Assembly: GCF_001021385.1 (NCBI RefSeq)
Contig: NZ_CP011773.1
Coordinates: 2,418,001-2,482,000, forward strand
Direction: 5' to 3'
DNA length: 64,000 bases
Origin: Mycobacterium sp. EPa45
GTDB taxonomy: Bacteria > Actinomycetota > Actinomycetes > Mycobacteriales > Mycobacteriaceae
The number at the start of each line of letters is the position of its first letter. Position 1 is the stretch's first letter. The notes under the pieces are model-generated. The model worked only from the letters and a program-made list of their open reading frames with translations. It ran no database searches and was not told the origin of the DNA. Position numbers and translations under genes: made by a program. This document shows positions 6,053 to 19,006 of this stretch, piece by piece.

Positions 6053-6802
6053 TTAGCCCGAGGGTCTGTCAAACCCCTGCGAAAAGAGTGTTTGCGCCCT
6101 GATCGGTTGCACAGAGGCGGGTCCAAGGCGATTTATCGCACTTTGGAAAGCCGTACCTCGTTGCGGGATAGCTGTGTCTGATCGCTGTCGCGCGGCCGCT
6201 GCCCGTACCGGCGATGCGACCGAGTCCACGCCGGGGATCTCCTGGCCGAGGCGGTCGACCTGGTTTCCGATATCCATGAAGGGCGGAATTAGTATCTGCG
6301 GCTGTTCCGAACCAGGTGCTTGCGATGAATTTCGCAAGGCGGGTCCGACCGCCACGACCTCCGGCGGCGGCGTCGGACCCGAACTCTGGTCTTTCAACAT
6401 GTTGCTCTTGCTACCGGCGTTGTCGTCGGGCTTCGTTGGGATGTCTGATCCGCCACCGTGATGAGGCAAGTGAGCCGTCTGCCCTCCGCCGCCGAAAAAC
6501 GGTGCCGCGGCGGACGTCTGGGCAGACCCCGGTGAGGTGCCCGCTAGCTGCTCGAGATGCTGCCGCCACGCCTGAAGGTAGCTGAACAGCTGTTGTGCAT
6601 AGTCCGGAGCGGACGGCGCGGGCTGTGCTGGGAAGGGCGTGGTTGACACGGGCTGTCCAACCGCCGACGCGGCTGGCGGCATGAACGAGTTGGCGGCAGG
6701 CGGAGAGCCACCCGCCAAACTCGCCCATTGCTGCAGAAGCTGTTGCCCTGCTTGAAGATAGGCGAGCAGTTGCTGCAGGTAATCCGGTGAAGGTGTGAAC
6801 AT
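6053..6802 (-). CDS. Pro/Gln-rich disordered protein with a duplicated helical motif
   Basis: 249 residues with no recognised domain. The N-terminus has two copies of a roughly 22-residue amphipathic motif, residues 6-27 and 66-87, exactly 60 residues apart and sharing PDY.QQL..YLQA...L.Q-type positions (about 13 of 22 identical). Between and after them the chain is Pro/Gly/Ser-rich and probably disordered, ending in a second conserved-looking segment (QILIPPFMDIGNQVDRLGQE, 169-188). The ATG at 6802 is set by AGGAGGTTAAA; this Shine-Dalgarno is encoded by the last codons of the FAD enzyme gene, whose TAA ends 1 nt before. It is the last gene of the encapsulin/terpenoid operon. A cargo-adaptor or scaffold role is inference only. 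Confidence 0.75.
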   Translation of the reverse strand: MFTPSPDYLQQLLAYLQAGQQLLQQWASLAGGSPPAANSFMPPAASAVGQPVSTTPFPAQPAPSAPDYAQQLFSYLQAWRQHLEQLAGTSPGSAQTSAAAPFFGGGGQTAHLPHHGGGSDIPTKPDDNAGSKSNMLKDQSSGPTPPPEVVAVGPALRNSSQAPGSEQPQILIPPFMDIGNQVDRLGQEIPGVDSVASPVRAAAARQRSDTAIPQRGTAFQSAINRLGPASVQPIRAQTLFSQGFDRPSG

Positions 6803-6803
6803 T

Positions 6804-9074
6804 TTAACCTCCTGCTGGTGCGGTCGGGAAAGGTGTGGAGATACCGAGCGGGTAGGGAGCCACCATGTCCAGTGGATGCGGCAGTGACCGCTGGCAAAAT
6901 TCTGAATCGAGGTTGCGGAGAGGGCGTGTGTCGGCCGGCTCACGGTTCTCGATGTCGAACACATAGCAGTAATCACCGGCCGGTGTCGGCATCCGGATTG
7001 GACTCGACAGGCTCTGATCGAGGAAACCGTACGGGAATACCCACTCCAGCGGCGGGCTCTTCTCCCGGCGGTCGATGCCACCTGATTCGACCCAGATGTA
7101 GTGGTCGAGAATGGCATTGACCGCATGGCGGCCCGACTCGCACGCGGCCTCCATCGACGTCAATCGAGTAAACGTCTTGTTCCACGTGCCGGCGAAGACC
7201 ACCGAATTGTTGTGCACTTGATAGCCGCCATGGCGCGCTTGCCAGACGTTGGCGTGCTGAAGGTTATTGAGCCACACCTCCTCAGGAGGTATGAAACTCC
7301 ATGACGTTCCGTGCGGATTCCACGGCTCAGCGCTGGGTCGGTTGCCCCAATCTCCCACGATAGGGACCAGGTACGGAGTTTTGTTGCGGACCACCCGGCC
7401 TTGGCCCTGACCCGGTCCGCCCGCCATGACGAGACCGCGATCGAGCGCGTACCACATCGGGCTCGGCACGACCCCTTGTCCACCCGATCCCGAATCGCCG
7501 GCCAGCGCGGTGGTGATCTGACGCCACACCTCCGAGGCAATCTCGTCGGGCGTGCAGTCGCGTGCCGCCTTTGCTTGACCGGACTCGTCGACCACGTACG
7601 GAGACGGGGTATTGAAATCCCCGATGTCGACCGACAGCACCGAGACATGGCCGTCGCGGTCCAGAATTGGTCGCTTCTCCCACAATCCAGTCTGATTGAC
7701 CGACGACAGTCCCCACGGGCTACCTACGTACAGCATGTGCCCTCGGACCAGTTGAAACTCCGTATCGAAGTAATACTGGATCCCACACAGTGTTTGGAAC
7801 CGATCCCATGGCACTCGCCCCAGCTCGTCCATCGAGTAGGGATCCCGCCATTGTTGTGGTCGGGTGGCGCGCGGCTGCAACGGGCCATCAGGTGGCGGAG
7901 CTGTGGTGGTGAAACCCTCCAGCTTGGCCGCGGTACCGCCCGTGCCTCCGGCGTGCAATGCGGCTGCGAGGTATTCGGCCGCGGGTGCATCGACGGCGAC
8001 GACCGTGTAATCCGCAGTCACCCGGGTGCCGTTGGCGAACGTGATCTGCGCACGTGGCCGCAGATGGGGTGGGTACTTCGGGTCGAGCGCCGGTGGGTCA
8101 AGTCGGATCGCCGCCGTATGGACGAAGCGGACGCCGAGTGCGAGGAGATGGTGGTACCAATGGTCGAACCACGACTCGGTGGTGGGACCATTGAGCACGC
8201 CGTCGGCTTTATTGTCGCGGCGGTCCATGCTCAGGTACAGCTGCAGGTTAGTGCTGAGATTTGTACGCGCGTCACCCCAGCGTGAGTCGAGGGCGACCAA
8301 AACCCTTGGCATCTGCCGCAATAGCTTGTCGCATCGCGGTGTGTAGGAGTATCTGTCCGTCCCGGTTTGGGGGTCGTGTCCGACGAAGAAGTCGTAAGCC
8401 GAGACGTTCTGCAATTCAAACGCGCGCCGTATCGGGCTCGTAACTAGGTAGCGAAGCAGCCTGCTCTCGTAGGTTGCGACGTCTGTCGGGGCGAACCCGA
8501 ACGTTGTGAGTTGCGTTAGAATACTGAGGAATTCGGCGGGGCTGCGCGGAAGTTCGCGGGGAAAGATGAGTGAGGGCTCGCCGTCGGCAGTGGCGCCCTG
8601 GGTGACAACCCGCCGCACGTTGTCATAGACGGTCCGTGAGGTCGGTGTCCAATGGGACGTGCCGTCGGCCCGATGTGTGTTCTGGTACACCGGGATGCGC
8701 TGGAACATGTCCCAGATGTGTAGGTAATACGCGGGGAAGAAGCGGAAGCCGTGCTCGCCCGCCACCGCACGCCCGGGCGCAGGTGGGTGGCCCAGCCGCC
8801 CAGGAAAGGGCCGCAACTCAGCTTGGCTTCCGTCTCGTGTACCGACGGTCGAATATTGAGACGCGGCAAGGCCGCCGAGCTTGACGGGCGGGTATGCGCC
8901 GTCAGACTTGGGGCCCAACCCGTTACGTTCGTCGCGTTCCGCCTCGTACACCGTGACGATGAAGCCCCGCTCGGCAAGTTCCTGAGCGGCGGTCAACCCC
9001 GCGATGCCGGCGCCGATCACCGCTACGGTCGGACGTCGTTTGCAGGACGCCGGTGTCGTGATGCCGTCGGTCAT
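6804..9074 (-). CDS. FAD-dependent oxidoreductase, phytoene desaturase / HpnE-like
   Basis: 756 residues. The N-terminal dinucleotide-binding fold (VAVIGAGIAGLTAAQELAER at 17-36, then an acidic end at VYEAE) is followed near residue 106 by GEHGFRFFPAYYLHIWDMF, the block typical of carotene desaturase and hydroxysqualene-dehydroxylase (HpnE) relatives. It is longer than these (about 450-550), with extra sequence in the middle and C-terminal half. It probably oxidises an isoprenoid. The start at 9074 forms an ATGA overlap with the SCP2-like gene. No membrane segment or signal peptide is evident. The exact reaction (desaturation, dehydration or isomerisation) cannot be read from sequence. Confidence 0.8.
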   Translation of the reverse strand: MTDGITTPASCKRRPTVAVIGAGIAGLTAAQELAERGFIVTVYEAERDERNGLGPKSDGAYPPVKLGGLAASQYSTVGTRDGSQAELRPFPGRLGHPPAPGRAVAGEHGFRFFPAYYLHIWDMFQRIPVYQNTHRADGTSHWTPTSRTVYDNVRRVVTQGATADGEPSLIFPRELPRSPAEFLSILTQLTTFGFAPTDVATYESRLLRYLVTSPIRRAFELQNVSAYDFFVGHDPQTGTDRYSYTPRCDKLLRQMPRVLVALDSRWGDARTNLSTNLQLYLSMDRRDNKADGVLNGPTTESWFDHWYHHLLALGVRFVHTAAIRLDPPALDPKYPPHLRPRAQITFANGTRVTADYTVVAVDAPAAEYLAAALHAGGTGGTAAKLEGFTTTAPPPDGPLQPRATRPQQWRDPYSMDELGRVPWDRFQTLCGIQYYFDTEFQLVRGHMLYVGSPWGLSSVNQTGLWEKRPILDRDGHVSVLSVDIGDFNTPSPYVVDESGQAKAARDCTPDEIASEVWRQITTALAGDSGSGGQGVVPSPMWYALDRGLVMAGGPGQGQGRVVRNKTPYLVPIVGDWGNRPSAEPWNPHGTSWSFIPPEEVWLNNLQHANVWQARHGGYQVHNNSVVFAGTWNKTFTRLTSMEAACESGRHAVNAILDHYIWVESGGIDRREKSPPLEWVFPYGFLDQSLSSPIRMPTPAGDYCYVFDIENREPADTRPLRNLDSEFCQRSLPHPLDMVAPYPLGISTPFPTAPAGG

Positions 9075-9475
9075 GGCGTCCCTGCCCTCAGGTCCGACAG
9101 CAGCGCGGGCACGCTTGCCGCTCTGACCGCGGCATGTACGTACGCCTGCAACGAGGCATGAGCGCGTTGGACGTCATCGAGCGAGCCGTGAACCGCAACC
9201 GTGCCTGCCTCCACGGCCTCGTGGAGCTCGGTCCTGGCGTCGATCAGATCGAGGATGGCGGCTCGGGAGGTGGCAATTCGGACGTTGACCGCCTGCATCG
9301 AACCGTCCGACACCTCAATATGTTCACCACCGCGGATCGAGAACACCTCATCACCGATGACGAGTTCGACGACGAGTGGACCGAGGTTGGCCACCAGCAG
9401 TCGGTAGCTGCCGGGGACATCTTCCTTGAGATGCTCGACTGAGCGGCGAAGAATCGACGAAACCGGTTCAGCCAT
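9071..9475 (-). CDS. SCP2 (sterol carrier)-like lipid-binding protein
   Basis: 134 residues. The order of strands and the late G.V.V.GSLDDV segment (about 100-110) with an alternating hydrophobic core (VNVRIATSRAAILDLIDART) resemble the SCP2 sterol-carrier fold, which binds hydrophobic ligands in a tunnel. Inside a terpenoid operon it may present or shuttle an isoprenoid between enzymes. The ATG at 9475 lies inside the 3' end of the CrtC-like gene (8-bp overlap), and its own stop overlaps the FAD gene start. The fold assignment is by pattern only. Confidence 0.6.
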   Translation of the reverse strand: MAEPVSSILRRSVEHLKEDVPGSYRLLVANLGPLVVELVIGDEVFSIRGGEHIEVSDGSMQAVNVRIATSRAAILDLIDARTELHEAVEAGTVAVHGSLDDVQRAHASLQAYVHAAVRAASVPALLSDLRAGTP

Positions 9476-10490
9476 AGAGGAACTCGAATACACCGGTGCC
9501 GACAAAATCGAAGGCCTCGCCCCTGATCGTGCCGCTCGCCCGGACGGTGCCGTCGGTTTCACAGAGTACGATCGACCGGTCAAGACGCACTTCGCTTGGT
9601 TGCGCCAGTCGGGCGTAGGAACGTGAGTGGAACTCAGCGCGCACCGTATCGCCCGCGCGGTTCGCCGTGATGTCGATTCGCTCGGGGACACCGGGTACCT
9701 CGCCGTCGAGCAGTAGCCGCATCGGTGGCGGTAGAGTGCAATCGGCCGGGCGGCTGAATCTGCCGCACGAAAGTGTCTGTACCGCCGCGTGCCGGAATAT
9801 CGCGGCCGGCTCGTCATGATGCCACACATAGAGTGAGCGAGAAATAGACCGCAGCCAGTTCCGGTCCGTGATCTCCACGAACACCATCGACCACGGGTCC
9901 GTGGAGCCGGTGGGCAAGATCGTTCCCCAGGTCCAACCGAAATCATCGCCCCACCGGAATCGACCCCAGTTGTGGTCGTGGTAGGCGAGGTCGTCCTCGA
10001 AGCGGTGCTGTCGGCCGCCGATTTGGAGCCAGCCCTGCGCGCGCAATCTTGGTACGAACAGCCAGCTGATTCGGCCATCACCCGCCGGCTCGTTGCGGAC
10101 GACGAACGGCTGGCTTGTCGGGGTGAAGTGCACTTCGCCCCGGATCTGCTTGTCCGGCAAACTGATTGACACACGGTAGCCGTCCGATTGCACGGCCATC
10201 CGGTTGCCGCCGATCGTCAGCTCGCCCAGATCGGCCGAGAGGTCGACTGCGTGCGCATCGAATCGCTCGATGGCGCCGGTCCAGTTCTGGTCGTACGCGA
10301 TCACGATGACGCGTGGCGCGAGCCGGACTTCGTCGGCGTCGAACACCTCGTTATTGAGGCTGAAGTTGATGAGCACCCGGACGCCGTGCCCGTGGATCAC
10401 GAAGTGGTGCCATTCCTTGAACCAGGCGGGCCGGGCGGTTGCCAGTACCGGCGTCCGTAAAAAATCGCTGCGGGCGAGCATCAAGGTCAT
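9468..10490 (-). CDS. CrtC/AttH-like lipocalin-fold protein (carotenoid 1,2-hydratase family)
   Basis: 340 residues. The key block YHDHNWGRFRWGDDFGWTWG (170-189) is the hallmark of the CrtC/AttH superfamily (hydroxyneurosporene synthase and relatives), in which the His/Asp residues of HDHNWG are implicated in hydration of a terminal double bond. The rest is beta-rich, consistent with two lipocalin-like barrels, and there is no signal peptide. In this operon a hydratase or isomerase acting on an acyclic prenyl or carotenoid chain is likely. It starts in a 4-bp overlap with the 89-residue gene upstream. Confidence 0.7.
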   Translation of the reverse strand: MTLMLARSDFLRTPVLATARPAWFKEWHHFVIHGHGVRVLINFSLNNEVFDADEVRLAPRVIVIAYDQNWTGAIERFDAHAVDLSADLGELTIGGNRMAVQSDGYRVSISLPDKQIRGEVHFTPTSQPFVVRNEPAGDGRISWLFVPRLRAQGWLQIGGRQHRFEDDLAYHDHNWGRFRWGDDFGWTWGTILPTGSTDPWSMVFVEITDRNWLRSISRSLYVWHHDEPAAIFRHAAVQTLSCGRFSRPADCTLPPPMRLLLDGEVPGVPERIDITANRAGDTVRAEFHSRSYARLAQPSEVRLDRSIVLCETDGTVRASGTIRGEAFDFVGTGVFEFLYG

Positions 10491-10756
10491 CGCAGAAACC
10501 TCGCTGTCGCGGCGACCTCGAGGGTCGGTTTATGCGATGTGCTCGGGGAGTTGGCCATTCGCTGGATCGCTGCCCCCGTGCTCGCGAGCCCGAGTAATGC
10601 GTACACGAAGTCGTCGCAGTCGCGGGCGGGGCGAGCGTGACGGTCGCCTTCAGCGGCGAGCGAGCGGACCATGTCGGCCAAACCTGCGAGACCGACTAGG
10701 TACCCGATGAAATCGCTCCTGTCTGCGAGTGCTTCGTGAGGATCGTTGAGCGTCAT
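10487..10756 (-). CDS. Small helical protein of unknown function
   Basis: 89 residues, no recognised family. The middle (FIGYLVGLAGLADMVRSLAA and DFVYALLGLASTGAAIQRMA) is hydrophobic/helical but too polar overall to be called a membrane protein with confidence. ATGA overlaps at both ends place it firmly in the terpenoid operon between the 152-residue protein and the CrtC-like gene. It could be a small accessory subunit. Confidence 0.6.
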   Translation of the reverse strand: MTLNDPHEALADRSDFIGYLVGLAGLADMVRSLAAEGDRHARPARDCDDFVYALLGLASTGAAIQRMANSPSTSHKPTLEVAATARFLR

Positions 10757-11211
10757 GCGAACCCCTCGGGCCGCAACCGGGCCAGGATCGAATCGTCGAG
10801 GCCTTGGCCTACGACGACATCGACCAGCAGATCGGCCCAGGCGTCCGGGGTTCCGCTCGGTGCTGCGGGACCGCCGAGAACGTTGAGACTTACCATCTCC
10901 CAGACGCGGCGCAAGTTCTCCACCGACTCAGAAGCAACCAGCCCGTCGCGCAACCGAGCCCCGCGGGGGGTTTGCGCGTAGCGATGCCCCTCGGCGACAA
11001 GGACGTCATGCAGCCGCCGCGCCGCCGCGGGGTTGCCGAGCACCGCGCGTCGTGCGCCCAGTAACAGGTCGAACACCGCCCGCTGCGGCCCATCGGCATC
11101 CTCAGGTCGCGGCGGATGCAACTGCGGTGTCGCGTGTTCGATGAGATCGAGGGTGAGTTCGCGGACCCTCTCGAGCTCGGCGAGCATGCCGGCCATCTCT
11201 TCGGGGCTCAT
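10753..11211 (-). CDS. Helical protein of unknown function in terpenoid operon
   Basis: 152 residues. The ATG at 11211 (MSPEEMAGML) overlaps the polyprenyl synthase stop as ATGA; the same frame stays open further upstream, but that reads antisense-like Arg-rich sequence and is rejected. The protein is alpha-helical with a coiled-coil-like start (MLAELERVRELTLDLIEHAT) and a Leu-rich C-terminal half. No domain recognised. The strict coupling to the synthase suggests a stoichiometric partner. Confidence 0.65.
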   Translation of the reverse strand: MSPEEMAGMLAELERVRELTLDLIEHATPQLHPPRPEDADGPQRAVFDLLLGARRAVLGNPAAARRLHDVLVAEGHRYAQTPRGARLRDGLVASESVENLRRVWEMVSLNVLGGPAAPSGTPDAWADLLVDVVVGQGLDDSILARLRPEGFA

Positions 11212-12416
11212 CGCGTCCGCCCATGTACGTAATCCACGAGATCGGCCAGCACGTCCCGGTGGCGGCTGTGGGGAAACCAGTCCAGACTCGCCAGCACGGC
11301 GGCCGCCTTCTCGGCATGGTCGGCGGCGACGTCCCGGGCGTGCCGCAGCGAGCCGACGTCGTGCATCAGTTCGTAGAGCCAGCGAATCTCGTCTATGCCT
11401 TTGCACTCCGTCGGCTGGTGCCCCTGCAGTCGCGCTTCCAGTTCGGCCCGCCCCGACTCCGACAAGTGCCCTCGCGTCGTCAGTGCGTCGAGGAGTTCGG
11501 TCAACCCGAGTTCACCGTCCGCGCTGGGGCGTCGCTTGGCCAGGATCGCGACGACCTGAGCCTGGTCTTGCGGTTCGGCATGCCGCAATGCGTGCAAGAG
11601 CATCAGGGTTCGCTTGCCCTCCCAAAGATCTCCGCCGATCTCCTTGCCGTACTCCTGCGGGTCGCCACGCAGGTTGAGCAAGTCATCCGTTATCTGGAAG
11701 GCCGCGCCGAGATACCGGCCGAAAGACTCCAACGGCTCCATGCGCTCCGGCCCCGCCCCGGCGGCGATCGCGCCGGCTTGCAGGGGAGTGATGAACGTGT
11801 ACCAACTGGTTTTCAGTTCCACCATCTTCAAGTAGTCGGCGTCGTTGAGCCGCCAACTGTTGGACCGCACCCACTCGAGCTCCAATGCCTGTCCGTCGAC
11901 GGTCAGCCGAGTCATCTTGGCGACCGCCCGCAGAATGCGCAGCGCAGGTCCGAGTCCCACTCGTTCAACATTGTCGAGCAGCGGTTGCAGTGACAGCGAA
12001 AGCATGGCGTCGCCGACGTTGATGGCGATCGGGACGCCGTGGTCGATGTGAAGCGTGGGTTTCCCACGCCGCCACCACGATTCGTCCTCGATGTCATCGT
12101 GGATCAGAAACGCGTTGTGGTAGAGCTCCAATGTGGCCGCCGTCGGCAGCACTGCTTCGAGGTGGCCACCAAGTCCGAGACATGCCGCGATGCTCAGCGC
12201 CGGCCGCAGCGCCTTCCCACCCCGTAACGGGTAATCGAGGATCAGGTCGTAGAGGCCGCCTTTTTCGCGCTCGCCCGGACCGTAGAGCCGCGCGATTTCA
12301 CCGTCGCACGCGTCCTTGCACAACGCCAGATAGTCGTCGAGGGGGCGGGCCGCCATCGGATTCGGTCCGCCGGCGAATGGCTTAGGGCTCGCGAATTCTG
12401 ACGAGACCGCGGTCAT
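11208..12416 (-). CDS. Polyprenyl diphosphate synthase, GGPP-synthase type
   Basis: 402-residue all-trans isoprenyl diphosphate synthase condensing IPP with allylic diphosphates. The first Asp-rich motif is HDDIEDE (D107-D111) followed by SWWRRG and PTLH. The second is FQITDDLLN (244-248), the DDxxN form seen in type III GGPP synthases. GGKALRP (67-73) supplies the IPP-binding Lys/Arg. The start at 12416 has GAGGAT upstream and overlaps the encapsulin-like gene by 35 bp; an internal ATG at 12356 (MAARPLDDY) is the alternative. If 12416 is right there is a flexible Pro/Gly N-terminal extension of about 20 residues, the kind of segment that can carry a targeting peptide. Confidence 0.9.
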   Translation of the reverse strand: MTAVSSEFASPKPFAGGPNPMAARPLDDYLALCKDACDGEIARLYGPGEREKGGLYDLILDYPLRGGKALRPALSIAACLGLGGHLEAVLPTAATLELYHNAFLIHDDIEDESWWRRGKPTLHIDHGVPIAINVGDAMLSLSLQPLLDNVERVGLGPALRILRAVAKMTRLTVDGQALELEWVRSNSWRLNDADYLKMVELKTSWYTFITPLQAGAIAAGAGPERMEPLESFGRYLGAAFQITDDLLNLRGDPQEYGKEIGGDLWEGKRTLMLLHALRHAEPQDQAQVVAILAKRRPSADGELGLTELLDALTTRGHLSESGRAELEARLQGHQPTECKGIDEIRWLYELMHDVGSLRHARDVAADHAEKAAAVLASLDWFPHSRHRDVLADLVDYVHGRTR

Positions 12417-13149
12417 CCGTGATCCTCAGCGCGTACCGGATCCGCGCAGTGAGCTGTATCTTGCCCAAGTAGGTTTCGCCGTCGATTTCAAGACTCGGTG
12501 CAACGCTGATTGCGACATCGACCGGCTCTTCACCGGGCGATGCCTCCGGTGCTGCGCCCTGCGGGATCCGTCGCCGACGGCCCAGCACGACGATTCGCGT
12601 GTGCTTGCCATTTCCGGCGAGCTTGGAGGTTCGGTGCAGTGCGTTGATATGCCCCGCAGTGAGCAGCGAATCCAGTATTGAGTCGCCGCCGTAAAACTGG
12701 CTGAGGTGTGTGAGCCCTTCGGTATTGGTGATCAGGCAGGACGGCGCTCGATACCCGCCATTCTCGACATGCGCACGGGCCTTGATGAGCTGGTTCAGCA
12801 GATTGGGTGCGGTGTCGTCAGTCTTCAAGAGCCAGTGAGCGTTGTAGTAGAGCTGGGGCAAGATGGCGTTGTCGAATTTCCTTGCGAGCACCTTGGCCAC
12901 AGCCATTACTTCGGTGAGCAACGCGTCAGGAGTAGGCCCATTCGCCTGGGCAAGACTTACGAGGAACTTCTTTTGCTTCATAGTCAGGGCTATGAACCCT
13001 GGGAAGTTGTATTTTCCGTCTGGCACCCTGATCTGACCGGGGTCACCGGTATCCCAGTGCGGGATGGATTGCCAGACAATGCTGCACTGCGCGAATGTCT
13101 CACTGACGGCCTGGTTGGCTAGGGCGAACCGCTCAGGACTGAGATACAT
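12382..13149 (-). CDS. Encapsulin-like (HK97-fold-like) shell protein, putative
   Basis: 255 residues, near the 265 of classical T=1 encapsulins. By eye it follows their order: a helix with an AK.LA..-DN.I pattern (about 76-97; encapsulins have a similar KLA..ED..I helix), an A-domain segment NLLNQLIKARAHVENGGYRA (116-135) leading to a CLITN strand, then a C-terminal P-domain-like beta stretch EEPVDVAISVAPSLEIDGET (207-226) and IQLTARIRYALRITDDRGLV (231-250), like the DVAIG...VRL..ETLTF...A.V.L end of encapsulins. The ATG at 13149 is the first Met at the point where coherent sequence begins; upstream codons are shadow. It overlaps the polyprenyl synthase start by 35 bp, so shell and enzyme would be co-translated. 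A different capsid-like or unrelated beta-rich fold remains possible. Confidence 0.55.
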   Translation of the reverse strand: MYLSPERFALANQAVSETFAQCSIVWQSIPHWDTGDPGQIRVPDGKYNFPGFIALTMKQKKFLVSLAQANGPTPDALLTEVMAVAKVLARKFDNAILPQLYYNAHWLLKTDDTAPNLLNQLIKARAHVENGGYRAPSCLITNTEGLTHLSQFYGGDSILDSLLTAGHINALHRTSKLAGNGKHTRIVVLGRRRRIPQGAAPEASPGEEPVDVAISVAPSLEIDGETYLGKIQLTARIRYALRITDDRGLVRIREP

Positions 13150-13221
13150 GGCTACGAACCCCCGACAAGTCGTAGTTATTTCGCTTCGATCATGGCAGAG
13201 GAAATCGGCGCGCGCGCAATT

Positions 13222-13234
13222 AATTCGTCGAATT
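13222..13234. promoter_or_regulatory. Palindrome upstream of encapsulin-like gene
   Basis: AATTCGTCGAATT is a perfect odd-centred palindrome in an AT-rich 104-bp gap between the cyclase stop and the encapsulin-like ATG. It lies about 73 bp before the ATG, where an operator could act on a promoter internal to the block. A second perfect palindrome, AGTAGTGAACTACT at 13245-13258, covers the cyclase stop codon and could be a short stem-loop. Roles are inferred from position only. Confidence 0.35.
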
Positions 13235-13253
13235 TTCAAAATGGAGTAGTGAA

Positions 13254-16200
13254 CTACTTGCTGAGCAGAACGATCTCTTGGCCGGGGTCCAATTCGCCAC
13301 GCGCCATCGCGTCGCAGTGCGCTAAATGCAATGGAGCAACGGGATCGTCGGGCAGCAACTTCTGGCACCGCTCGAAGGCGGCCCGCGCCCCGTCGACATC
13401 GCCCGCGTCGAACAATGCGAACGCCTCGTCGAAAGCGGGCTGCGCGGCATGCTTCGCGGCACGGAGTTCAGCCGAATCCGCGTCATAGACTTCATAAATC
13501 GTCACAGGTCGGCGTCGATTGACTACAGAGACACGCTCCATGCGCCGAGTGTCGAACTCCGCAAGACGCGCAATGCGCTCATGTGTGCGGTCGGAGAGTA
13601 GCAACGCGGAGCCATATCGCTTGTTGGTGCTCTCGATGCGCGCGGCGAGGTTAACTGCGTCGCCGATGATGGTGAGGACCATGCGGTTGACTCCGCCGAC
13701 CAGACCGACCCCGACCGTGCCGGTATTGATCCCGATGCCGGCCCGCAGCTCTTCGGAACCGAGCGCCTGGCGTTCCTGGTTGTGCTCGTGCAGGGAGCGG
13801 AGCATCGCCAATCCCGCTCGGACGGCGTCGGCCTCGGACTCGAAGACGGCGACGATCTCGTCACCCCGTACGTCTTGGATCATGCCGTTATAGCTGATGA
13901 TCGGTAGTTCGACCGCCCGCAGAAAGCCCATCGCCAAGTTACCCGCCTCGGCAACGTTCATGTCCTCGATCATGGTTGTGTAACCACGGATGTCGCTGAT
14001 CAGCACCGTCATCTCGCGTTCGACGCGGTAACCGCTGCGGACGCGGCGAAGGTCGTCGATATCGAGGATTCGCAGCAATTCATTGGGCACGAATCTGGAC
14101 TGCACATCAATGAGCGATTGCCGGTACTCGTCGGCTGCTCGAAGCCGCGCCTCGAGTTGGAAGTTCCACAGGGGAGCGGCGGCCTGGGCGCAGAGGAAGA
14201 CGACCGCCTGCTCGTGTTCGGCGCTGAAAACTCCTGCGGATTCGCCCTTCTCGGCGTATAGGACACCGATTATATTGTCGTGCAGCCGAATTGGAACGGC
14301 CAGGATCGAAAGTGTGGTTGCTACGCGATCGGGGGCAACGAGGACCGGAGAGCCATCGTCGATCACTCGGCGCACTACATCCGGGTCGTACGACACCTCG
14401 TTCCATGGTCCGTCGATGATCGAGATCGTGCCGCGGTCATTGATGGCCCGAACCGTCAGGTGCTCTGCGTCACCGGTGAGGAACAGGACGCGATCAGCAC
14501 CAGTCGTGTCTGCCACCGACCCCAGAATGACGTTGGCCAAGGTGTCCGCGGTCCGAGCAGCGGACATCGAGTGAAGCAGCTGATGTGCCCCGACGGGATC
14601 GATCCCGGCCGAACCCGTCAGGTCACGACGAAGTAGCCACGGGTGCTCCTGCGCGAGCTTGTCGGTGCGCACCACGAAGCCCAGGTTCAGCCATCGCTGG
14701 TAGGCAGAACGCAGCATGTGTTCGCCGAGCGTCGCCCGCCGGGTGTCTGTGTAGAGGGCGGCGACCTCCTCGTGGCTATACGCACCGACTATCGGAAGCT
14801 GATTCTCCTCGGCGAGGGCGATGGCCTGGTGGAGGTAGCGATCGGCCTTGCCGCTCTGTCCGCGCGCTCTGGCCCAGGCTCCCTGAATCAGGGCGTAGGC
14901 CGCCCCGTAGTTCTCCGGTGCACCTTCCGCCCACTTACGGTGCAACGCCAGAGCCTGGCGCACGAATCGGACGGTCCCGGAATCCTTTGGTGCGCAGTGG
15001 ATCATGCTCAGAGCGCCCAGCATGTAGATGAACTGTGAGGCAGGGACCCCGGCCAGGCCGTCGATGTGCTCGATTGCCTCATGGGTGGCGGCGACCGCAC
15101 CTGCGTAGTCGCCGTTCCAGAAGTGCAGCCCCTGTCGCATGGCCGCCGCCGCGGCGAGCGCCACTGCGTCACCCTCGCGTCGCGCCGCAGGCAGCACTTC
15201 CCGCTCGTCGTAACCGCTTTCACCGGCGAGCAGGAGCGGATCGTCGCTGCGTCCCATCAAATTCAGGCAGAGTTGCTGCACGCTTTGGCACAGCGCGCTG
15301 GGTACTGGTTGGGAACGGATGTGCGGGATCAGGGATCTGGCAAGGGCGTCGATCTCAGCGAGTGGACGGCCGAGCCAGAACGATTGGGAGAGCAGAACCG
15401 CGACCAGAAATCCGGCGTTCTCCTGGTCACCCTGGTCGAGTGCCTCATCGACGGCCTCTCGAAGTTCGCCCAATCCGTCGCGGATCGGGTGACGCCAGTG
15501 GTTGATGTAGTCCAAGTGCATGAACACCGTCTGCGGGCGGGCCTCGCGGAATTCCGGCCGCGATGCCAGTGACCTGCCGACCTCGCCGAAGCGCTGGGCG
15601 CCCGCGTGGTCACCGAGCAACACGAGGACGATGCCGTACCCGGCGATGACCACCGGTGACGACGGCGTGTGGCCATGAGCCAATGTGAGGTCGAGTTGCT
15701 TTCGCACGAGCAGCGGCAAGATGTTCGGGCGGATGAGGACCGCCATGTTGCACAGCTCGGCGAGAATCGGATGCAGTGCAATGACTCGCTCGTCGTCGCA
15801 GTGCGGCAGCTCCAGCAGCCGTTCGTTGCTCCACCGCCGCATCGTCATCCTCATCCGGACGACCGCGTTCCCCATACGTGGTTTGCCGGCTTCGGTTGCA
15901 ACCCGCTCACCGAGTTCATCGAGCGCGCGAAGGCCGATCTCCAGCGCATCCTGGAGACGGTTCTGCACGACACACCCTTTGAGCCGCAGATAGGCGATTC
16001 GCGCCCGGTCCGGTGGCTGCGGCAGAAACTCCGCGGCCTCGTCGAGCAACGTATTGAGTGTCGCCACGTCGCCGACGAGCAGCGCGGCGTCCGCGGCATC
16101 GAGTTGCAGCTCTCGTGTGAGCGCGAAGTGGGTAGCCCAGCGTTGTTCGCCGAGCAAGTCCAGCGCACTGCGACAGTAGTCCAGGGCCAACGGAAATGAA

Positions 16201-17666
16201 GCCTGCGCCCGAGCCTTTCGCGCAGCCCGCCGTGCCACCTCGACGAAGCTGGTGCGTTCGATGTCGTCGACGAGCTCGACGCCGGCGATACCCACATGGC
16301 GTGCGGCTTCGAAGACACGATCGTCCCCGAGGGTGATCAGCCGCCGACCGACGCGCAGGTGGATGGCCCGCGCGTCGGAGGCAGACAGCCCCGCCCGGGC
16401 CGCCTCGGCGATCCGGTCATGGCTGAACCGGTAGCGGGCGTCACGACTTATCGCGTTGGTGATCCGCTGCCCACCGGCGTCGAGGGCCTCGATCAGCCGG
16501 AGCTCCAGGCATGCCCACAGCGCCCGAGCCACGATGTCGGGCGACTCGGCTGCGGCTGCGGTGGCGTCGTCGAGGTCGAACTCGCCACCGATGCACGCCA
16601 GCGAACTCAACACCGCCCGGTCCGCGGGGCGGAGCTGATCGAGATACCGGCCCAGGAACTCGGCGGTGGTGGCAGAGACCTCGATCGAGGTGAGCACGCG
16701 CAAGTCCCAGCTCGGGTGGCCGGCCGGGCCCGCCGTGATGAGCGCGCCTTCGCGTTGGGCGCGGTAGAACAACTGCCGGACCGCCAACGGGTTGCCCCCC
16801 GTCCGATGGTGGAACTCGGCGGCCACATCGCCCATCTCAACGCTGCTACCGCATACGTCGGCCAGCAACTCCTCGACGTCTTCGAGTGCCAGTGGTTCGA
16901 GCTGAATGGCTTGCAGGCCTTCCGATTTGAGGGCCGCTGCGGCGGGATCGAACTCACCCGCCCGGTGCGCACCAAGGACAAGTACGTTGCGAAGCGACAC
17001 TGTCAACAGTTCAGCGAGAAGCAGTAGCGTATCTCGGTCGGCCCACTGAAGATCATCGACCGCGAGGACGACCGGCCGGTAGGACGCGGTGGCAGAGAGC
17101 AAACGAATGATGGCCCGGTGAAGCTGGCGACGTGAGTCCGCCGCATCTGGCTCGATGGCGCTTTCGAATTCGCCAAGTACTGGTCCCAACTCGGGCACCA
17201 GTTGGGTGAGAATGCCTGCCAAACCCGACATCTCGCTGACCAACTCGGCCTGCCACCGCGCGTGTTCGGCAGGTCCGGTCGCCAGCATGGTGCGCACGAT
17301 CGAGCCGAGAGCGATGGACAGCGCCGAGTATGGAGCCGGTGCATCGGCTCGGCATCGTCCGTACGCGAAGACGCAACCGCTCTTGGACACCTCGACGCCG
17401 AAGGCCTGGATCAACGTCGACTTTCCCACGCCCGCAGCCCCGCTGAGCAATAAGCAGCCGCCGCCGGCGCGTCCCGCCGCGTCTACCGCGGCTCGCAGTT
17501 CGGTGAACTCGTGTCGGCGGTCGACGACACGGCCGCCCAGGTCCAGAACCGGCGTCGTCACGTCGGCGGACGCACTTTGACCAGCGCCGTCGCTCGAATG
17601 GCGCCGTGAGAAAGTCGCAGGTTGACGCAGTTGTGCATTCGCAAACCCCCCGAGGGCAATGTGCAT
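13254..17666 (-). CDS. AAA ATPase / TPR / GAF / class III adenylate-guanylate cyclase
   Basis: 1470 residues. Order: AAA16/ORC-like ATPase with P-loop GAAGVGKST (76-84) and Walker B VVLAVDDLQWAD (about 196-207); a long TPR-like helical middle (about 400-1030); a GAF-like domain (about 1050-1190); then a class III nucleotide cyclase catalytic domain. This has metal-binding Asp1225 (SDIRGYT) and Asp1269 (RGDEIVAVF) and transition-state Asn1339/Arg1343 (NLAARIE), so it looks active. A short TPR-like tail follows. The architecture matches large mycobacterial cyclase-ATPase regulators. It lies 104 bp upstream of the encapsulin-like gene on the same strand, so it may head the block or regulate it; divergent P450 on the other side. 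Confidence 0.9.
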   Translation of the reverse strand: MHIALGGFANAQLRQPATFSRRHSSDGAGQSASADVTTPVLDLGGRVVDRRHEFTELRAAVDAAGRAGGGCLLLSGAAGVGKSTLIQAFGVEVSKSGCVFAYGRCRADAPAPYSALSIALGSIVRTMLATGPAEHARWQAELVSEMSGLAGILTQLVPELGPVLGEFESAIEPDAADSRRQLHRAIIRLLSATASYRPVVLAVDDLQWADRDTLLLLAELLTVSLRNVLVLGAHRAGEFDPAAAALKSEGLQAIQLEPLALEDVEELLADVCGSSVEMGDVAAEFHHRTGGNPLAVRQLFYRAQREGALITAGPAGHPSWDLRVLTSIEVSATTAEFLGRYLDQLRPADRAVLSSLACIGGEFDLDDATAAAAESPDIVARALWACLELRLIEALDAGGQRITNAISRDARYRFSHDRIAEAARAGLSASDARAIHLRVGRRLITLGDDRVFEAARHVGIAGVELVDDIERTSFVEVARRAARKARAQASFPLALDYCRSALDLLGEQRWATHFALTRELQLDAADAALLVGDVATLNTLLDEAAEFLPQPPDRARIAYLRLKGCVVQNRLQDALEIGLRALDELGERVATEAGKPRMGNAVVRMRMTMRRWSNERLLELPHCDDERVIALHPILAELCNMAVLIRPNILPLLVRKQLDLTLAHGHTPSSPVVIAGYGIVLVLLGDHAGAQRFGEVGRSLASRPEFREARPQTVFMHLDYINHWRHPIRDGLGELREAVDEALDQGDQENAGFLVAVLLSQSFWLGRPLAEIDALARSLIPHIRSQPVPSALCQSVQQLCLNLMGRSDDPLLLAGESGYDEREVLPAARREGDAVALAAAAAMRQGLHFWNGDYAGAVAATHEAIEHIDGLAGVPASQFIYMLGALSMIHCAPKDSGTVRFVRQALALHRKWAEGAPENYGAAYALIQGAWARARGQSGKADRYLHQAIALAEENQLPIVGAYSHEEVAALYTDTRRATLGEHMLRSAYQRWLNLGFVVRTDKLAQEHPWLLRRDLTGSAGIDPVGAHQLLHSMSAARTADTLANVILGSVADTTGADRVLFLTGDAEHLTVRAINDRGTISIIDGPWNEVSYDPDVVRRVIDDGSPVLVAPDRVATTLSILAVPIRLHDNIIGVLYAEKGESAGVFSAEHEQAVVFLCAQAAAPLWNFQLEARLRAADEYRQSLIDVQSRFVPNELLRILDIDDLRRVRSGYRVEREMTVLISDIRGYTTMIEDMNVAEAGNLAMGFLRAVELPIISYNGMIQDVRGDEIVAVFESEADAVRAGLAMLRSLHEHNQERQALGSEELRAGIGINTGTVGVGLVGGVNRMVLTIIGDAVNLAARIESTNKRYGSALLLSDRTHERIARLAEFDTRRMERVSVVNRRRPVTIYEVYDADSAELRAAKHAAQPAFDEAFALFDAGDVDGARAAFERCQKLLPDDPVAPLHLAHCDAMARGELDPGQEIVLLSK

Positions 17667-17791: not shown

Positions 17792-19006
17792 GTGACCGAT
17801 CACGTCGATGTCGATTTGCCCACCATGCCGGCCCCGCGAGCACCCCGTTGCCCGCTCGATCCGCCCGCGGAGTTTGCTGCGTGGCGCGACAACCCAGGAC
17901 TGCGACAGGCGATCAATCTGTTCACCGGGCAGCCGGCCTGGGTGGCCAGCCGGTACGAGGACATCCGGGCCGCCGTCACCGATCCGCGGATGAGCGCCAA
18001 CACCCTTCCCGAGTCGGTCAAACCACCCGGTGAAGAAGACGACATGCCGGTGTTCTTCGCGCGCACCGACGATCCTGAACACAATCGGCTGCGGCGGATG
18101 CTTACGATGGACTTCACCGTCCGGCGCGCGAAGGAAATGGCGCCCGATATCCAACAACTCGTCGACGGCTTCCTGGACAAGATGATTGCCGCCGGGCCAC
18201 CCCGCGACCTGGTCCGCGATTTCGCACTGCCTGTGCCGTCGTTGGTGATCTGCCTGCTGCTTGGTGTGCCCTACGAGGACCATGAGTACTTCGAGGAGCA
18301 CAGTGTCGCTGGTCTCGACGTCAAGACCAGCGATGAGCAACGGACCGCGTCGATCATGACGATGATCGGTTACATCACCGAGTTGCTGCAGCGCAAGAAG
18401 GATGAGCCTGGTGATGATCTGTTGTCGCGCTTGATGACTCACAACGTCGCAGACGGTGAGATCAGCGTGATGACGGCCGCGATGACCGGATGGGTGATGC
18501 TGCAGGCCGGTCACGAGACCACGGCGAGCATGATCGCGCTCGGCACGCTGGTCCTGCTGAAGAACCCGGATGCCTTCGCCCGACTGCGGGACAGCGACGA
18601 CCCGACTGTGCGACTCCAGATCATTGATGAGCTGTTGCGGTACCTGACGATCGTGCACAGCGGGCTGGTCGACCGGATCGCGACCGAGGACTTCGAGCTG
18701 GGTGGACAACTGGTTCGCAAGGGCGAACACGTGATGATGAACCTGACCGCAGGCAACTACGATCCGGCGTTCGTCGAGAACCCCGAACGATTTGACATCG
18801 ACCGAAATCCGCGCGGTCACTTAGCCTTCGGCTACGGTGTCCACCAATGCGTCGGCCAGAACCTGGCGCGAACGGAATTGGACATCGCACTGACCACGCT
18901 GGCTCGCCGGCTCCCGACGTTGCGGTTGGCTGTGCCGGAGGACGAGCTGGATTTCATGAACGACCAAGCCATCTGGCGCCTCAAGGAACTCCCGGTCACG
19001 TGGTGA
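17792..19006 (+). CDS. Cytochrome P450
   Basis: 404-residue bacterial class I P450, soluble. The I-helix oxygen-activation motif AGHETT is at 239-244, ExxR (ELLR) at 280-283 and the haem-binding loop FGYGVHQCVG at 346-355 with Cys353 as axial ligand. The GTG at 17792 is preceded by AGAGGGA. The stop overlaps the GTG of a TetR gene, giving a two-gene unit. No ferredoxin or reductase is adjacent, so electrons must come from elsewhere. It is divergent from the terpenoid-block cyclase, so an isoprenoid substrate is possible but unproven. Confidence 0.93.
   Translation: MTDHVDVDLPTMPAPRAPRCPLDPPAEFAAWRDNPGLRQAINLFTGQPAWVASRYEDIRAAVTDPRMSANTLPESVKPPGEEDDMPVFFARTDDPEHNRLRRMLTMDFTVRRAKEMAPDIQQLVDGFLDKMIAAGPPRDLVRDFALPVPSLVICLLLGVPYEDHEYFEEHSVAGLDVKTSDEQRTASIMTMIGYITELLQRKKDEPGDDLLSRLMTHNVADGEISVMTAAMTGWVMLQAGHETTASMIALGTLVLLKNPDAFARLRDSDDPTVRLQIIDELLRYLTIVHSGLVDRIATEDFELGGQLVRKGEHVMMNLTAGNYDPAFVENPERFDIDRNPRGHLAFGYGVHQCVGQNLARTELDIALTTLARRLPTLRLAVPEDELDFMNDQAIWRLKELPVTW

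Follow-up and report, generated by a model that had tools for sequence, protein, structure and literature searches.

An encapsulin-like shell protein predicted within a conserved isoprenoid operon of mycobacteria

Encapsulins are bacterial protein nanocages of viral descent, and the locus described here raises the question of whether a short gene lying against a prenyl diphosphate synthase gene encodes the shell of such a cage and, if it does, what the cage would hold. The gene lies in a stretch of 64,000 nucleotides from Mycobacterium sp. EPa45 (the window; contig NZ_CP011773.1, positions 2,418,001 to 2,482,000), for which an initial annotation had proposed an encapsulin-like shell at 12382..13149. 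The frame is indeed open: it runs from an ATG at 13149 to 12382 on the minus strand (the strand had been left unstated) and encodes 255 residues without an internal stop. The gene is present in a single copy in the genome (one contig of 6,177,406 bases), and a scan of 12900-13500 for sigma-70 promoters and terminators found none. The genes of the block, all on the minus strand, are as follows:

6053..6802, minus: proline-rich tail protein, 249 aa, candidate cargo tag; two DY.QQL..YLQA..Q.L segments, a low-complexity linker, and AQTLFS near the C-terminus
6804..9074, minus: probable FAD-dependent oxidoreductase (flavoprotein), 756 aa, candidate cargo; PF13450 E 4.6e-8 and PF01593 E 5.3e-7, above cut-off
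9071..9472, minus: SCP2-like protein, about 133 aa, start uncertain; SCP2 E 0.086 and DUF3022 E 0.0024, both below cut-off
9468..10490, minus: protein E, 340 aa, weakly tocopherol cyclase- and DUF2804-like; Tocopherol_cycl E 0.014 and DUF2804 E 0.018, both below cut-off
10753..11211, minus: protein D, small, 152 aa, of no known family; present in 42 of 43 loci
11208..12416, minus: prenyl (polyprenyl) diphosphate synthase, 402 aa; PF00348 E 1.2e-60, PDB GGPP synthase 1wmw E 2.9e-53
12382..13149, minus: shell protein, 255 aa, predicted encapsulin-like HK97 fold
13254..17666, minus: large regulator-like protein, 1470 aa; AAA_16 PF13191 E 9e-29, PF00211 E 2.6e-8, GAF PF01590 E 1.8e-7

The shell frame is not a chance ORF, because it has 398 homologues at E<=1e-3 and at least 700 in a profile search (8000 candidates with the most shared words were scored, with a profile built from 75 of the 120 homologues listed). 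Most of the listed homologues lack a functional name, and those named by organism come mainly from Mycobacterium and Mycolicibacterium; a Solirubrobacteraceae MAG (P0052) is also among them. The automatic names that do exist were rejected as a guide to identity, as they conflict with one another ("Phage major capsid protein" for P0044, "DUF2993 domain-containing" for P0009, "General secretion pa..." for P0080). The protein itself has no Pfam or NCBIfam match at E<=1, and a PDB profile search gave no match. Its sole PDB sequence match, to a dioxygenase, is not significant (E 0.26) and was discarded as an identity.

The AlphaFold model of the shell protein has a mean pLDDT of 92.8 and a pTM of 0.89, with no residue under 50. 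Foldseek returned 305 matches at E<=1e-3, and the best 50 listed are all encapsulins or encapsulin-based cages. In the VIA structure comparison, whose list derives from the Foldseek ranking, the first 36 of the best 50 listed are likewise encapsulins or encapsulin-based cages, with 11-16% identity to the shell. The VIA alignments to family 1 encapsulins start at model residue 1 (residue 5 for 2e0z), so that the N-terminal helix falls within the match; the two family 2 entries among the matches listed (9bje and 6x8m) start at residue 21. In the model this helix spans residues 5-22 and corresponds to the elongated N-terminal helix of family 1, and the alignment to a complete encapsulin chain takes in 234 of the 255 residues. 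The segments that the initial annotation had singled out by eye as encapsulin-like sit in fitting elements, namely AKVLARKFDNAI in the long helix 75-102, NLLNQLIKARAHVENGGYRA in helix 114-130 followed by strand 135-141, and the quoted C-terminal stretches in strands 210-225 and 231-243. Among the structures listed there is no confident non-HK97 match; encapsulins come first and family 1 scores best. We regard the HK97 fold and encapsulin likeness predicted for the shell as highly probable, and a working cage as likely.

Which encapsulin the shell most resembles can be judged against the families of a large census (PMC8346489), in which families 1 and 4 were recognised by Pfam models, with PF04454 as the family 1 criterion, and families 2 and 3 by sequence seeds. 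Judged by its model, the shell comes nearest to the classical encapsulins of family 1 (for example M. xanthus EncA 8vjo, M. tuberculosis 7phm, and T. maritima 3dkt), with which it shares the elongated N-terminal helix, but at only 11-16% identity. Unlike family 1, it has no PF04454 match at E<=1, and no DyP, ferritin-like, or hemerythrin gene was recognised among the operon genes. Known terpenoid-linked encapsulins belong to family 2B and carry a cNMP domain, as had been stated initially and as the census supports (PMC8346489). The locus shares with family 2B, whose putative cargo is a polyprenyl transferase or terpene cyclase, the HK97 fold, the isoprenoid setting, and a prenyl transferase in the operon (PF00348, E 1.2e-60; 42/43 loci) (PMC8346489), but the cNMP domain of the family 2B E-loop is missing from both the 255-residue model and the Pfam results. 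PF19307 (family 2) has no match to the window shell at E<=1 and none genome-wide. Family 3 encapsulins also lie within biosynthetic clusters, but those described centre on peptide/polyketide and sulfotransferase genes (PMC8346489). Family 4 consists of an A-domain only, of about 100 aa, whereas the shell aligns to a full-length chain. HK97-type phage capsids differ in setting, as the shell sits in an enzyme operon and has no convincing match in phage records.

Because the family 1 sequence match and the family 2B cNMP domain are both missing, we file the shell in no named family, and rate it as a family 1-like shell in an isoprenoid setting, outside the described sequence families. The short length, the missing cNMP insert, and the closeness to family 1 that had been proposed at the outset are all borne out. 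The pairing of such a shell with isoprenoid chemistry, which had been called new, is new as far as literature searches reach, because those already linked to terpenoids are of family 2B and have a cNMP domain; among 5.39 million open papers, searches judged by title and opening of the abstract listed nothing on a family 1-like shell in an isoprenoid operon. The same genome also has a separate PF04454 (family 1) encapsulin at 5370895-5371647, beside which the mycobacterium would gain a second, distinct predicted cage.

The operon around the shell gene is well conserved. By means of two conserved peptide patterns, 43 loci were found in genome contigs, and 40 of these share one gene order on a single strand: regulator, shell, prenyl synthase, D, E, SCP2-like, flavoprotein. 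The exceptions are two loci that reach a contig end (L036, L044) and a Pseudonocardia locus (L039) with the regulator on the opposite side and reversed. Gene by gene, the regulator is present in 43 of the 43 loci, the synthase and D in 42 each, and E, the SCP2-like protein, and the flavoprotein in 41 each. In one of the loci (L043, M. lepraemurium) several genes of the block, including shell and flavoprotein, match only partially, as if the operon were decaying. Divergent to the operon in the window lies a plus-strand gene (17792-19006), cytochrome P450-like by eye, to which none of the 43 related loci has a match at E<=1e-6.

Both Asp-rich motifs of the prenyl synthase are conserved in the alignment. 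For protein D, neither Pfam nor NCBIfam gave a match when the longer ORF that begins at 11406 was searched. The two weak Pfam matches of protein E both span about residues 148-191, and its YHDHNWG motif is invariant or nearly so in 27 sequences; the protein may resemble lipocalin-type CrtC. The Pfam matches of the flavoprotein are confined to about residues 19-47, an N-terminal dinucleotide-binding stretch, and its best PDB match is an L-amino acid oxidase (E 0.0019). Since the assignments of the flavoprotein, protein E, and the SCP2-like protein are weak, the operon chemistry can only be inferred. The large protein upstream of the shell has AAA_16 ATPase, GAF, and class III nucleotidyl cyclase domains, the last of which matches CyaB (3r5g, E 1.9e-17), and it probably controls the operon. 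In the alignment it has an Asp at the position of a CyaB lysine, presumably the substrate binder. The contrast between this cyclase domain and the putative cNMP-binding domain of family 2B shells is only suggestive.

The flavoprotein is accompanied by the proline-rich tail. By tblastn, 40 of 41 loci show tail similarity next to the flavoprotein, and in the remaining one (L030) a contig end cuts the sequence. According to a helix pattern, 17 of the 41 loci have the tail fused to the flavoprotein as its C-terminal part; in 15, as in the window, it forms a gene of its own, whose candidate start is no more than 14 nt from the flavoprotein stop. No call was obtained for the other nine: L030 is cut, L006 contains stretches of N, the frames of L028, L039, and L043 are long and lack the pattern, and those of L015, L038, L040, and L042 are short. 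The tails are low in complexity, with a median P/A/G/S/Q/T content of 61% (35 tails) versus 45% for the shells. The pattern [PAVT][KRQ][ST]L[FY] falls within the last 80 residues of 25 of the 35 tails and elsewhere in one, compared with a mean of 0.07 and a maximum of 2 in 2000 shuffles, although the end motif, (K/R/Q)(S/T)L(F/Y), was defined after seeing the sequences. It is absent from 10 of the 35 tail proteins and is found in 10 of 19 tail-bearing groups (grouped by shell identity at 65%). A scan for the TVGSL-type pattern [LIV][TGSN][VIL]GS[LI], which covers that tag type only, found none in the synthase, D, E, SCP2-like, and flavoprotein sets and 34 tails (the regulator and the window's own tail were left out). 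Fusion or fission of a tail, together with a short motif ending a low-complexity linker, is the anatomy that would be expected of encapsulin cargo, and we give even chances to the tail being a loading device.

From what was computed, that is, the predicted fold, its closeness to family 1, the conserved operon, and the fusion of flavoprotein and tail, we infer assembly, cargo, chemistry, and regulation as follows. Copies of the 255-residue HK97-fold protein would assemble as a closed cage. The operon synthase, judging from its family, would supply a linear prenyl diphosphate, which protein E, the SCP2-like lipid carrier, and the flavin oxidoreductase may then process (some of the underlying matches being weak). 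The flavoprotein would most likely be the main cargo, with the prenyl synthase as second candidate. The low-complexity tail, as a fused or separate partner, would bear the two helix-like segments and the end motif, which may dock on the shell interior in the manner of cargo-loading peptides. The cage could thereby retain a hydrophobic or oxidation-prone isoprenoid intermediate, away from other enzymes, and the ATPase/GAF/cyclase protein would regulate the operon.

The conserved isoprenoid operon and the predicted shell together suggest an unrecognised nanocage that makes or modifies an isoprenoid. For the model as a whole (an encapsulin-like nanocompartment shell with the flavoprotein as main cargo, engaged in isoprenoid processing) we hold a modest preference. 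More tentatively, and with slightly less than even confidence, we propose that the shell belongs to an additional encapsulin family or subfamily that evolved separately from the four known ones. It would house an isoprenoid-modifying flavoenzyme and load it by a new (K/R/Q)(S/T)L(F/Y) tag on a detachable proline-rich tail, in some loci part of the enzyme and in others a separate adaptor. If true, isoprenoid chemistry has acquired nanocages on at least two occasions, one starting from a family 1-like shell and one from a family 2B shell. Because the best Pfam HK97-type match of 75 members of the shell group has an E of only 0.086, the group would probably be missed by the census route, and further cages may hide among "hypothetical proteins." The system is a testable candidate for caged isoprenoid redox chemistry with a modular cargo tail.

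The strongest competing explanation accepts the cage but places the prenyl diphosphate synthase inside it, as proposed for family 2B, and leaves the flavoprotein outside. The synthase has the tightest linkage to the shell: as had been noted at the outset, the two ORFs overlap by 35 nt (12382-12416), which is real if the first ATG of the synthase is used. In 15 of the 42 other loci an ATG lies at -32 or -35 from the shell end, with SD-like sequence upstream, and each of the other 27 has a candidate start no further than 30 nt from the shell stop, so translation of the synthase is probably coupled to that of the shell. Polyprenyl transferases are, moreover, putative family 2B cargo (PMC8346489). 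However, family 2B cargo is described with a disordered N-terminal domain of 50-100 residues (PMC8346489), and none is seen in the operon synthase, whose first about 24 residues are unconserved. In addition, five distant actinobacterial clusters retain a related synthase (with a distant protein E) and have no shell match (best E 0.35). On balance we consider this explanation unlikely, although it deserves to be kept in view. The best NCBIfam match of the synthase, to a family 2 encapsulin cargo model, was rejected as support: matches to that model occur in 61 of 61 genomes (two pass the cut-off), and the genome's other synthases outscore the operon synthase.

A second explanation is that the shell is a domesticated phage capsid protein that has the HK97 fold and forms no closed cage, serving instead as a scaffold or sheet for enzymes. 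In its favour, members of the shell group score better against phage major-head profiles than against the encapsulin model of Pfam. For phrog_10, 18 of 75 members match at E<=10 (best 0.0012), and for phrog_283, 15 of 75 (best 5.9e-5); when 10 members and relatives were tested singly, two matched phrog_283 (E 0.0098 and 0.14). For Linocin_M18 (PF04454) a single member of the 75 matches, at E 0.086, the best to any Pfam HK97-type family. Of six operon proteins compared with their counterparts in the window, the shell is also the least identical one in 37 of 41 loci; in the four loci nearest to the window (L002, L003, L004, L031) the SCP2-like protein scores lower. Against this explanation stand a nearly complete HK97 chain, with its N-terminal helix, and the fact that cage-forming encapsulins provide the nearest folds; we therefore hold it to be improbable. 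Comparison by hhalign with the shell family (a query of 180 sequences; sets of mycobacterial family 1, 25/26, family 2, 6/10, and actinobacterial phage-head matches, 9/11) gave probabilities of 39.6% for phage capsids, 9.2% for family 2, and 1.6% for family 1. We do not rely on these scores because they are low and are beaten by one unrelated control, a prenyl synthase alignment at 86.8% on 56 columns (the other four of five controls were at <=0.7%). As hhalign gave no decision, the case for the fold rests on the predicted structure and the weak phage-head profile matches.

It is much less probable that the AlphaFold model is wrong and that the shell protein has some other fold: identity to the matched structures is only about 15% and there is no significant sequence match to a solved structure, but the model is confident throughout, the two aligners concur (even though the VIA list was taken from the Foldseek ranking), and the phage-head profile matches agree with it. 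That the gene is a prophage or phage-remnant capsid gene lying beside the operon by chance is scarcely credible despite the HK97 fold and the phrog matches, as synteny argues strongly against it (in 40 of 43 loci the gene holds the same position in an operon of enzyme rather than phage genes), a tblastn search of 50,697 phage records gave four weak matches (E 8-9), under baseplate/tail-lysozyme genes, and plasmids gave none at E<=1.

To return to the proposed nanocompartment with flavoprotein cargo, shell and flavoprotein go together in the genomes surveyed. The shell was found in 7 of 298 genomes of the order, and across the phylum in 7 of 396, of which six lie within this genus and one (G537, E 2.2e-4) was rejected as a chance match, antisense to an ORF that is cysteine synthase-like by eye. 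Protein E is present in 12 of 298 genomes of the order at E<=1e-3 (six of them at E<1e-140) and in 25 of 396 of the phylum, where those beyond the strong ones are distant. The flavoprotein was found at E<=1e-20 in 6 of 278 genomes (three candidates scored per genome). The same six genomes carry the shell, a strong protein E, and the flavoprotein; in the seventh shell genome of the order (G128), the 6.3-kb contig ends inside gene D. The five distant clusters with synthase and protein E have no convincing flavoprotein match (best E 0.013). In two of them, L123 and L124, there are SCP2-like genes (E 4e-9 and 1e-7) together with a doubtful relative of D (E about 0.02), and these shell-less clusters perhaps belong to a wider uncharacterised actinobacterial isoprenoid system. 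By eye, proteins of these two clusters (genomes G545 and G311) have a short helical N-terminus and a beta-rich part. In L126 (10198-12129) and L127 (10387-12123), a weakly SCP2-like N-terminal region and a prenyl synthase share one ORF.
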